A DNA stretch of 35,940 nt, taken from Gemmatimonadota bacterium. Its GTDB lineage: Bacteria > Gemmatimonadota > Gemmatimonadetes > Gemmatimonadales > GWC2-71-9. The stretch's first letter is position 1; every line of letters begins with the position of its first letter. This document shows, one piece after another, positions 4,877-31,806 of this stretch. The notes below the pieces were generated by a model. It ran no database searches. It had not been told where the DNA came from and worked only from the letters and a program-made list of their open reading frames with translations. Where the stretch lies: positions 1 through 35,940 of the forward strand of contig JACQVB010000120.1 of the NCBI GenBank assembly GCA_016209985.1, read 5' to 3'. A program made the position numbers and the translations under genes.

Positions 4877-6772
4877 TCAAGCACTCGTGACATACTGCCG
4901 GCCCGCCGCAGTAAGATGCCTTACATCCGCACTGCGTACGGTAAACCCCTTAAGGTCCAGCCACTCCAGTAACGGTATCAAGTACTTACGTGATATGTGG
5001 AGTTTGTCCCGTAACTGGGCCGGTGTCGCCCCTTCGAGCCTGCCGATCTCGGCAAGCGCTTCCTTGGCCAAGCGCTCCAGTGCCTCTCGTTGATAATATC
5101 GTTCCTGGCCGACTCGAATCGCGGTGCCCTGCCTCACATAGTACTCGGCAATTCGCTCGACCGATCCGCCGACACTCCCGGCAGTGAGCTCGGCCAGAGT
5201 GCGGCCCTCCGCCCCGGCGGACGCCAGCGCCTGAAGCAGGATCGCACCGGCTTTTTCCTCTTGAGTACTCAGCGAGGCAACGTGTCCGGCCAACCGGGTG
5301 CGACCGCCTTCGCTCACGATGTCGCCCGAGCGCTGCAGCTCCGCGACGACGTGCTCCCCCACGACGGCCGGCCGGAGCGATTGCCGCAACAGCTCCAGGG
5401 CCATGCCGGGCTCGAGCGGTTGGGTACGGTGATACGTGGCCAGGGCTTCGAGGGCCTCTCGTCGAAGACGTTCGAGAGCTGCCGCGGGGACCAGGCGGTC
5501 CCCCACCTGCACGATCTCAGACCGCTCGAGGGCGGCTTGGACGGTGGCGGGCCGTTGGCCCGCATGAATGCCGGCGCGCACCGCAAGGTCCCCGATAGCC
5601 AGTCCGTCCGGAGCGGCGCAGACGAATCCCCGTACCCGTTCCACCGAATCGCTGCCCTGCCGTCGCCCATCAGCCACTGGGCGCCTCGGCCGGGACGGCG
5701 GCCAGGGGTCGACCACGAGGCAGCCGCCGATCGTCGTCATGGGCGAGTACGACCGGAGCACCCCACGATCCCCCCAGCGCGCAATGACCGGCGACTCGAG
5801 CCGGAGACGTGCGAGACCCGTTTCTCCCGGCGCGATCTGTTCGTGCTCCGGTGTCAAGCGGGCGATCACTTCGGCGGTACCAAGATGAAGCCGGAGTCGC
5901 GTCCTCTGGGTCATTGGCCGGGGCGCGGTCGGGAGAAGCGAGAGCGTGATGTCGATACTGGAGGTCACGCGCCATGACGGATCATTGACGGCAACACTCC
6001 CTCGTCCGGCCGCGGCGCGTTCCAGCCCCACCATTGCCAGCGCGGTACGGCGCCCGGGCTCCGCGCGCTCCCGGCTTTCTCCATGGACCTGGATGCTACG
6101 CACGCGTCCGCTCGCGCCTTCGGGCAGCACGGAGACCTGGTCGCCGACCTTCACCGACCCGCTCCAGGTTGTTCCGGTAATCACGGTACCCGCTCCCGGC
6201 AGGCTGAACACCCGGTCCACCGGCATGCGGAAGAGATCGTCGGCCAGGCGCACTCCCGCCCGCGCGGCGCTTCGGGCCAGAGACGCGCGTAGCTGATCCA
6301 GGCCCTGGCCGGTCACCGCCGAGACCGCGACTGGCGGCTCCCACCGGATCGCGGTGGCGGCAAGACGCTCGGCAACATCGGCCCGCACCAGCTCGAGCCA
6401 ATCCGGGTCGGCGAGATCGGCCTTGGTGATGGCGACCGCCCCGGTCGCAATCCCTAGCGCGTCGAGGATCGCCAGGTGTTCCGTCGTTTGGGGCATCACC
6501 CCTTCGTCAGCGGCCACGACCAGCAAGGCTACATCGATGCCGGTGGCACCCGCCACCATGTTGCGGATGAAGTCCTCGTGCCCCGGGACATCGACCACGC
6601 TGGCCCGGTACTCGCCGTCCAGTTGCAGGTGCGCAAAACCGATATCGATGGTAATGCCACGACGCTGCTCCTCCGGAAAACGGTCGGTATCGATGCCGGT
6701 GAGCGCCTTGACCAACGCGCTTTTCCCGTGGTCCACATGGCCCGCGGTACCGATCACGACATGCCGAGTCAC
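4877..6772 (-). CDS. selB: Selenocysteine-specific translation elongation factor SelB
   Basis: A 631-residue GTPase that delivers Sec-tRNA(Sec) to the ribosome at UGA codons marked by a SECIS hairpin. G1 is GHVDHGKSAL near residue 11, G3 is DVPGHEDF and G4 is TKAD. Domains II and III follow, and the C-terminal half has the winged-helix repeats that bind SECIS RNA, ending in the family-typical ISRKYLIPLLEWLD. The start ATG at 6772 overlaps the recO stop as ATGA, so translation is coupled. No selA, selD or tRNA-Sec lies in the window. Its presence implies selenoproteins elsewhere in this genome. Confidence 0.95.
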   Translation of the reverse strand: MTRHVVIGTAGHVDHGKSALVKALTGIDTDRFPEEQRRGITIDIGFAHLQLDGEYRASVVDVPGHEDFIRNMVAGATGIDVALLVVAADEGVMPQTTEHLAILDALGIATGAVAITKADLADPDWLELVRADVAERLAATAIRWEPPVAVSAVTGQGLDQLRASLARSAARAGVRLADDLFRMPVDRVFSLPGAGTVITGTTWSGSVKVGDQVSVLPEGASGRVRSIQVHGESRERAEPGRRTALAMVGLERAAAGRGSVAVNDPSWRVTSSIDITLSLLPTAPRPMTQRTRLRLHLGTAEVIARLTPEHEQIAPGETGLARLRLESPVIARWGDRGVLRSYSPMTTIGGCLVVDPWPPSRPRRPVADGRRQGSDSVERVRGFVCAAPDGLAIGDLAVRAGIHAGQRPATVQAALERSEIVQVGDRLVPAAALERLRREALEALATYHRTQPLEPGMALELLRQSLRPAVVGEHVVAELQRSGDIVSEGGRTRLAGHVASLSTQEEKAGAILLQALASAGAEGRTLAELTAGSVGGSVERIAEYYVRQGTAIRVGQERYYQREALERLAKEALAEIGRLEGATPAQLRDKLHISRKYLIPLLEWLDLKGFTVRSADVRHLTAAGRQYVTSA

Positions 6773-29842: not shown

Positions 29843-31495
29843 TCACATTCTCTCCGGAGCAGTTACGCCGATAAGATTGAGCCCGTTGGCAAGCACGATT
29901 TGCACGGCGCGGACCAGGACCAACCGCGCTTTTTCGATCGCCTCGCCTACGCCGATGACGCGGTGGCGATGATACCATCCGTTGGCCAGCCGGGCGAGAT
30001 CATCCAGGTAGGCGATTACCCGGTGCGGCTCGAGGTTCTCGGCCGCGCGCTCGACCAGCGTCGGAAATTCCGCGAGGTGCTTCATGAGCTCCTGTTCATC
30101 AGCCTCGGTCAACAGCGACAGGTCCACACCATCGGCCGTGACCGCCCCTGCCGTCGTTCCCGCCGTCCGTAGTATTCCGGCCATTCGGGTATGCGCGTAC
30201 TGAACGTAGTAGACCGGATTCTCTTCTGATTGTTTGGTCGCCAGATCCAGGTCGAATACGAAATGCGAATCGGCCTTGCGCATCAGCAGAAAGTAGCGCA
30301 TCGCATCCTGTCCGACCTGATCGACCAGATCGCGTACGGTCACGTAGCTCCCGGCCCGCTTGGAGATCTTGACCTCTTCTCCGCCCTTCATGACGGTCAC
30401 GATCTGGTGCAGCACGTATTCGGGATACCCTTGGGGAATTCCTACTTCCAGCGCCTGCAGGCCCACTCGCACGCGGGTGACCGTGCTGTGATGGTCGGCG
30501 CCCTGCACGTTGATGGCGCGCCTGAAGCCGCGCTCCCATTTGGTCCAGTGATAGGCGACATCGGGCACGAAATAGGTGTACTCCCCACCTTTCCCGGCGC
30601 TCTTCCGCATCACCCGGTCCTTGTCGTCGCCAAAATCGGTGGTGCGGAGCCACGAGGCTCCCTCTTTCTCGTACGTGTGGCCGGCATCGTCGAGCCGTTT
30701 GACGGTCTGCTCGACCTTGCCGCTGGTATAGAGCGAGGATTCGAGGAAATAGACGTCAAACTTGACGCCGAACGCCCGGAGATCGTGATCCTGCTCCTCG
30801 CGCAGGGCCTGCACCGCGAACCGGCGCACCGCCGGCGCGTCTTTCCCTTCGGGGTCCTCAGGATGCCGGGCGAGATACTGCTCGGCGATGTCGCGGACGT
30901 AGTCGCCATGATAGCCGCCCTCCGGGATCGCCGCGTCGCGCCCCCGGAGCTGCTGAATGCGCGCCTGAACCGACAGGCCGAGATTGGTGATCTGGGCGCC
31001 GGCATCGTTGTAGTAGAACTCGCGGGTCACCTTCCAGCCGGTCCACTGGAGCAGCGCGGCGATCGCATCGCCGATCGCGGCCTGACGTCCATGACCCACG
31101 TGAAGCGGGCCGGTGGGGTTGGCCGAAACGAACTCCACGTTGACCGGCTGGCCCTTTCCCACGCTACTCCGGCCGTAGCTCGAACCGGCACGGAGGATGA
31201 CGGGAAGCACCGCCGAGAGCTGCTCTTCCGCGAGCCAGAAGTTGATGAAGCCGGGACCGGCAATCCCGATCTTGCTCACGACTTCTTTTGGCAGGTCCAA
31301 CCTGGAGACGATGATTTCCGCCACGGCGCGTGGCTTCTGCTTGAGCGGGCCGGCAAGCTTCAGCGCCAGATTGCTGGATAGGTCCCCGTGTCCGGCATCC
31401 CGGGGGCGTTCGAGGACGATCTCGATGTCTGCCGCGCCCAGCTCGCCGGCGATCCGTGCCAGCGCCTCACGGAGCCGTTCGGCCCCGCCGATCAG
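29843..31495 (-). CDS. argS: Arginyl-tRNA synthetase, probable CTG start
   Basis: A 550-residue class I synthetase if started at CTG 31495. HIGH-type motif HVGH in NPTGPLHVGHGRQ, KMSKS-type loop KISKR, and the anticodon-binding C-terminus ending NLIGVTAPERM. The N-terminal domain (ERLREALARIAGELG, RPRDAGHGDLSSNLALKLAG) is family-conserved and lies upstream of the first canonical start (GTG 31324). No ATG, GTG or TTG occurs in that frame back to the preceding in-frame stop within fmdB. The CTG overlaps the fmdB stop as CTGA, just like the ATGA/GTGA junctions elsewhere here, and gives the expected (M)I-x-x-x-ERLREAL beginning. Confidence 0.93.
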   Translation of the reverse strand: MIGGAERLREALARIAGELGAADIEIVLERPRDAGHGDLSSNLALKLAGPLKQKPRAVAEIIVSRLDLPKEVVSKIGIAGPGFINFWLAEEQLSAVLPVILRAGSSYGRSSVGKGQPVNVEFVSANPTGPLHVGHGRQAAIGDAIAALLQWTGWKVTREFYYNDAGAQITNLGLSVQARIQQLRGRDAAIPEGGYHGDYVRDIAEQYLARHPEDPEGKDAPAVRRFAVQALREEQDHDLRAFGVKFDVYFLESSLYTSGKVEQTVKRLDDAGHTYEKEGASWLRTTDFGDDKDRVMRKSAGKGGEYTYFVPDVAYHWTKWERGFRRAINVQGADHHSTVTRVRVGLQALEVGIPQGYPEYVLHQIVTVMKGGEEVKISKRAGSYVTVRDLVDQVGQDAMRYFLLMRKADSHFVFDLDLATKQSEENPVYYVQYAHTRMAGILRTAGTTAGAVTADGVDLSLLTEADEQELMKHLAEFPTLVERAAENLEPHRVIAYLDDLARLANGWYHRHRVIGVGEAIEKARLVLVRAVQIVLANGLNLIGVTAPERM

Positions 31496-31806
31496 GACTC
31501 GGCTCCGGGTTTCTTCTTCGACTTGTCGGCTGGTTTGCTGCTCGAGGTCTCCGCGGGTTTCTCGATCTTCGCGGGTTTTTCGGTCTTGGGCGTGGCACTC
31601 TCGTCGCCCGATTTCTTCTCACCGGTGCGCTTATAGTCCGTCGCGTAGAAGCCCGACCCCTTGAAGACGACGCCGACGCCCCCCGAGATCATCCGTTCGC
31701 CCCTGGTGCCGCACTTGGGGCATTTGGGGCGGGTGTTGTCGGAGATCTTCTGGACTTTTTCGTACTCGTGCCCGCACTTCGGGCACCGGTACTCGTAGGT
31801 CGGCAT
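31492..31806 (-). CDS. FmdB-family zinc-ribbon protein
   Basis: A 104-residue protein. The start MPTYEYRC (ATG 31806) is the universal FmdB beginning, whereas a longer frame starts at 31842. The zinc ribbon is C-P-K-C-G-H and C-P-K-C-G-T, followed by GVVFKGSGFYATDYK. The C-terminal 45 residues are Lys/Pro/Glu/Ser-rich and disordered. Molecular function is not established. Some members regulate transcription. Its stop is shared with the proposed argS start. Confidence 0.9.
   Translation of the reverse strand: MPTYEYRCPKCGHEYEKVQKISDNTRPKCPKCGTRGERMISGGVGVVFKGSGFYATDYKRTGEKKSGDESATPKTEKPAKIEKPAETSSSKPADKSKKKPGAES

Follow-up and report, generated by a model that had tools for sequence, protein, structure and literature searches.

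Conservation among relatives supports CTG as an inherited start codon of argS in a clade of Gemmatimonadota that also uses CTG for pth and infC

The only copy of argS found in a search of the Gemmatimonadota genome G000 (a 4.64-Mb draft of 289 contigs) appears to start at CTG, and 14 other genomes have the same codon at the corresponding position. These data support the view that CTG is a real, inherited start codon of argS in one clade of this phylum. We consider it very probable that the ordinary initiator tRNA starts arginyl-tRNA synthetase (ArgRS) at CUG with the aid of a strong Shine-Dalgarno (SD) sequence and of coupling to the upstream fmdB-like gene, within a more general habit of this lineage of using CUG. 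The finding is stronger and wider than a first, sequence-only reading of this DNA could know.

The window analyzed here, that is, the whole stretch of 35,940 nucleotides, is contig C69 of G000. On its minus strand, argS occupies positions 29843..31495 and comprises 550 codons from the CTG (31493..31495) plus a stop codon at 29845-29843. It is directly preceded on the same strand by an fmdB-like zinc-ribbon gene (31492..31806; Pfam Zn_ribbon_8, E 9e-16) running from an ATG at 31806-31804 to a TGA at 31494-31492. Start and stop codon thereby form the 4-nt CTGA overlap that the sequence-only reading had described. A GGAG SD core (31503..31506, minus strand) lies within the 3′ end of fmdB, 7 nt before the CTG. 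It had further been claimed that no ATG, GTG, or TTG occurs before the preceding in-frame stop, and this was borne out: going upstream from the CTG, the first stop met in the argS frame is a TGA at 31619..31621 (minus strand), 42 codons away, and none of these codons occurs between this stop and a GTG at 31322..31324 (minus strand), codon +57 counted from the CTG. The overlap had also been likened to eight other ATGA or GTGA junctions. Several were recovered on the minus strand (e.g., at 6772, 20911, 23662, 26665, and 27762), but our count was only approximate and did not reproduce the eight.

Translated from the CTG, ArgRS contains the N-terminal (PF03485), catalytic (PF00750), and DALR anticodon-binding (DALR_1, PF05746) domains. 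The protein scores 406.6 bits against TIGR00456 (cut-off 261.65 bits), and its closest named relatives are in metagenome-assembled genomes of Gemmatimonadota. Two other starts have to be weighed against the CTG, the GTG at 31324, which would give a shortened ArgRS, or another non-canonical codon beside the CTG such as the ATC at 31492. The GTG is the first canonical codon and the choice of a standard gene finder, and the ATC is a near-cognate codon directly following the CTG. However, Pfam Arg_tRNA_synt_N matches ArgRS residues 6-87 (profile positions 5-84 of 85, E 1.2e-20). The 57 codons upstream of the first canonical start thus do encode conserved ArgRS N-terminal sequence, as had been proposed, and initiation at the GTG, which would cut most of this domain, was rejected on the basis of this match. 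Moreover, the GTG at +57 is absent in many members of the clade described below, and the codon following the CTG differs among them: few have ATC, others carry ACC, AAC, AGC, AAG, ATT, or ACT. The CTG itself is common to all members but two, and an alternative start is very unlikely.

We inspected the homologous fmdB-argS junction across the order, in roughly 90 genomes, the check in related genomes that had been suggested together with the original claim. Within the family of G000, 15 genomes show CTG at the exact argS position (G000, G006, G007, G017, G019, G021, G023, G025, G036, G042, G046, G048, G056, G058, and G062), which represent about ten genera with ArgRS identities mostly of 53-69%. 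GTG takes this position in G001, a member of the same genus as G000, and in G031, so that CTG is present in 15 of 17 genomes. In the rest of the family, argS starts with GTG, rarely with ATG or TTG, within a few codons of this position. Since the window stems from a single metagenome assembly, an ATG, GTG, or TTG could have been turned into CTG by an error in sequencing or assembly. This is ruled out by 14 further, independent assemblies with the identical C, among them G058 with its single contig of 2.87 Mb, and the chance of such an error is negligible.

In an ArgRS tree built on the N- and C-terminal parts of the protein, from which G021 was left out because its argS is split, the CTG genomes together with G001 and G031 form a single clade of 16 (SH-aLRT 98). 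Three start-label changes are required on this tree. Most simply, CTG would have been gained once at the base of the clade and replaced by GTG on two later occasions.

Some peculiarities of argS itself were observed along the way. The gene looks mosaic: its catalytic core in G000, G031, G036, and G078 resembles that of family f2, whereas its N- and C-terminal parts agree with the lineage of each genome (window positions 29846-31495 compared with G062, G058, G031, G036, G078, and G114), which suggests that the core was replaced by recombination. The argS of G021 is split into two parts (1366000-1369500 and 2445423-2446607) that lie about 1.1 Mb from each other on one 5.5-Mb contig; the gene may have been rearranged or be a pseudogene, or the contig may be misassembled. 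Three genomes of genus g37 (G037, G067, and G074) gave only weak argS matches of about 31% identity. Their ArgRS seems to be a different one, in contrast to that of G056, which belongs to the same genus. Finally, record CALQGY020000022.1, titled Candidatus Kuenenia stuttgartiensis, contains a Gemmatimonas-like argS with fmdB upstream and is probably a mislabelled metagenome bin.

The reading frames of the relatives allow almost nothing but the CTG. In G019 and G007, a stop codon lies two codons upstream of it in the argS frame, which leaves almost no other start, and G017 lacks a canonical start codon from −8 to +60 of argS. Together with the conservation in about ten genera and the GTG that two clade members have in its place, this supports the claim that argS starts at the CTG at 31495. 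The same frames bear on a second possibility. Because the frame of argS is −1 with respect to that of fmdB at the overlap, ribosomes that slip by −1 while finishing fmdB could yield an FmdB-ArgRS fusion in which the CTG is read as leucine. The stops in G019 and G007 leave almost no room for such an event, fmdB ends at an earlier TAA in G017 and G025, and no conserved slippery sequence is present at the end of fmdB. A fusion is extremely improbable, and we rejected it on account of the upstream in-frame stops and the missing slippery site.

The C of the start codon is present in 14 of the 16 clade members of the tree. The other codon that holds this C is usually the serine codon TCC; it is CAC, CCC, CAC, or ACC in G017, G025, G036, and G048, and the C is kept. 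For comparison, we used the 67 codons of argS whose fourfold prefix is invariant across the 16 genomes. A C in at least 14 genomes was seen at only one of these 67 fourfold sites, and any single base in at least 14 genomes at two. The start C is therefore conserved more than expected by chance.

GGAG-type SD sites precede argS in nearly all CTG genomes. We computed the pairing of the 15 nt upstream of the start with the anti-SD sequence and obtained a median of −8.7 kcal/mol for the CTG genomes versus −4.0 kcal/mol for 59 members of the family that do not belong to the clade (Mann-Whitney p 4e-7, computed without correction for kinship). Thus, the weaker start codon is accompanied by a stronger predicted SD interaction. 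The two clade members with GTG, G001 and G031, show values of −6.6 and −5.0 kcal/mol, and G000, at −5.8 kcal/mol, is the weakest of the CTG set. The only relevant item found in the literature on Gemmatimonadota start codons was an anti-SD survey.

Based on these observations, we propose that argS translation begins at the CUG at 31495-31493 with fMet at residue 1. Initiator fMet-tRNA reads GUG and UUG with a mismatch at the first position. It would likewise pair with CUG despite such a mismatch, and the strong SD site embedded in the end of fmdB would make this weak start workable. A ribosome finishing fmdB would probably reinitiate across the CUGA overlap. The sequence-only reading had expected the start to rely on translational coupling. 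Our data support this only in part. Most CTG relatives share the CTGA geometry, but in G017 and G025 fmdB stops at the TAA two codons earlier: the CTGA is no longer needed for fmdB there, yet the CTG stays intact. The stronger SD pairing predicted for the CTG genomes also has to be considered here. The arrangement resembles the ATGA and GTGA termination-reinitiation pairs (PMC6728339) in its 4-nt geometry, in the TGA lying over the next start, and in the SD site inside the upstream gene. It differs from them in that CTG replaces ATG or GTG, and in that two genomes lost the overlap and kept the CTG. The passages on Shine-Dalgarno sequences and start codons in that article do not mention CTG.

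In E. coli, CUG gives only 0.86% of the output of AUG (PMC11497404), which seems low for a sole argS gene and counts against the proposed explanation. Because CUG is weak in E. coli, either a low output is intended, in which case the weak codon might set or regulate the amount of ArgRS, or initiation at CUG works better in this lineage than in E. coli. We found no change that would account for a better use in the IF3 of G021 or in the initiator tRNA of six genomes. An initiator tRNA with a normal anticodon stem (CGGGCTCATAACCCG) is present in the CTG genomes G019, G023, G025, G036, G048, and G056, and an altered initiator tRNA was rejected on the basis of its normal sequence. No initiator tRNA was recovered from G000 or from some other bins, and the near matches there are not initiator tRNAs; its absence from G000 is most likely due to an incomplete bin. 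G021 IF3 aligns over its full length with solved IF3s and keeps the MDYGK, RPG, and FRGR stretches, so that no gross change was seen in this stretch-level comparison.

We also surveyed odd start codons in two genomes that carry the argS CTG, comparing some 1.2 Mb of G019 with 0.8 Mb of G058. Filters for GC3 and for SD were applied against shadow ORFs, and there were 178 usable gene pairs. An NTG codon with a good SD site in both genomes is shared by 22 pairs: 18 are canonical, two are mixed, and two are CTG in both genomes, namely pth and a D-Ala-D-Ala-ligase-like (ddl-like) gene. Two apparent start-less genes were noticed in contig C1 of G019 (~726989-727991 and 666891-667221), with matching places in G058. 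Each is preceded by an in-frame TGA that lies within a conserved motif, SHGAG-TGA-ACKL, which resembles selD, and YKSPT-TGA-GCC, which resembles a DUF411 protein. This pattern suggests that the TGA codons encode selenocysteine.

The pth gene starts with CTG in each of the 20 clade genomes that were read, G000 among them (start region TAA GCC CTG CGG CTG GTT TTC GGC). The codon directly precedes the conserved GLGNPG region, and an in-frame stop is nearly always located two codons upstream. Of 11 other family genomes, six share the CTG; the same column holds TTG in three, and the remaining two have GTG one codon earlier. Three of five genomes of family f3 carry the pth CTG, the other two being a GTG and G107 without a recognized start, and it is found in none of 25 genomes of family f2. 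The pth of G107 shows no ATG, GTG, TTG, or CTG at the expected place; its start column holds a CTC, with a stop five codons upstream.

The infC gene, encoding IF3, starts with CTG in 29 of 30 family genomes (12 of 13 in the clade, with TTG in G023, and 17 of 17 outside it), mostly preceded by AGGAGG-like SD sequences. In the neighboring families, its start is ATT in all four f3 genomes and ATT or ATC in all nine f2 genomes. The ddl-like gene has CTG in G000, G006, G007, G019, G031, and G058, and GTG, ATG, or TTG in the same column elsewhere. Such an interchange of NTG codons at one column is the behavior of a start codon. The presence of CTG throughout the clade and in pth, infC, and the ddl-like gene points to a habit of the lineage and not to a single oddity: CUG would serve as a functional start in infC, pth, and some further genes.

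What maintains this habit can be viewed in two ways. CUG may merely be tolerated, start selection being relaxed such that any NTG with a good SD site works and CTG drifts without regulatory meaning. The ddl-like column with its mixture of CTG, GTG, ATG, and TTG, the pth column with CTG and TTG, and the two changes of argS to GTG fit this expectation. On the other hand, CTG is kept at deep divergence (argS 15/17, pth 20/20, infC 29/30), a single substitution at these sites would yield a canonical start, and a CTG pair in only two of 178 gene pairs shows that its use is not universal. We regard mere tolerance as a serious possibility, if short of an even chance. Alternatively, discrimination by IF3 could keep CUG in place, so that the output of infC, argS, and pth as a group falls when IF3 is plentiful, CUG having replaced AUU or AUC. 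This idea extends the proposed CUG initiation by the ordinary initiator tRNA and does not exclude it. The strongest hint that CUG joins the IF3-discriminated class, and that argS and pth come under IF3, is the switch of infC itself from the ATT or ATC of all 13 f2 and f3 genomes. That argS and pth are also translation genes, and that the start C of argS is more conserved than nearly all fourfold sites, points in the same direction. However, the non-translational ddl-like gene also uses CTG and varies freely, family f3 has the pth CTG although its infC starts with ATT, and argS became GTG in G001 and G031. Maintenance by IF3 is plausible but appears rather unlikely to us, and so, on these comparisons, does the full proposal that CUG replaced AUU/AUC for IF3 self-limitation and that argS and pth belong to the same IF3-sensitive regulon, which we would call doubtful. 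For argS and pth, tolerance of CUG is at least as likely as control by IF3.

One of the closest known systems is infC with its AUU or AUC start and IF3 autocontrol. Here as there, an essential translation gene has a conserved start other than AUG, GUG, or UUG and a strong SD site, and infC has such a rare start throughout the order studied. The differences are that the codon is CUG and that argS and pth carry it as well. Rare starts of the infC type, in the form of CUG, thus extend to argS and pth. No report of conserved CUG starts in either gene was found in the mostly non-subscription literature searched. A 2020 survey by Gvozdjak and Samanta is said to deal with genes that prefer non-AUG starts. 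CUG accounts for 0.024% of annotated bacterial starts and is the NTG codon that bacteria avoid, for reasons that are an open question (PMC11497404). These sporadic cases share with ours that CUG initiates (PMC11497404). Here, in contrast, the codon is conserved, in about ten genera for argS and family-wide for infC, it belongs to essential genes, and alternatives are largely excluded by the reading frame.

CTG is not among the starts considered by Prodigal (PMC2848648), and automatic annotation of this group is therefore likely to shorten or miss these proteins. With CUG retained in its sole argS, in pth, and in infC, the lineage is a natural test of what makes CUG usable, be it SD strength, coupling, or IF3. 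If IF3 control holds true, these genes would represent a small, IF3-sensitive start-codon regulon of essential translation genes that is misannotated by standard gene finders.
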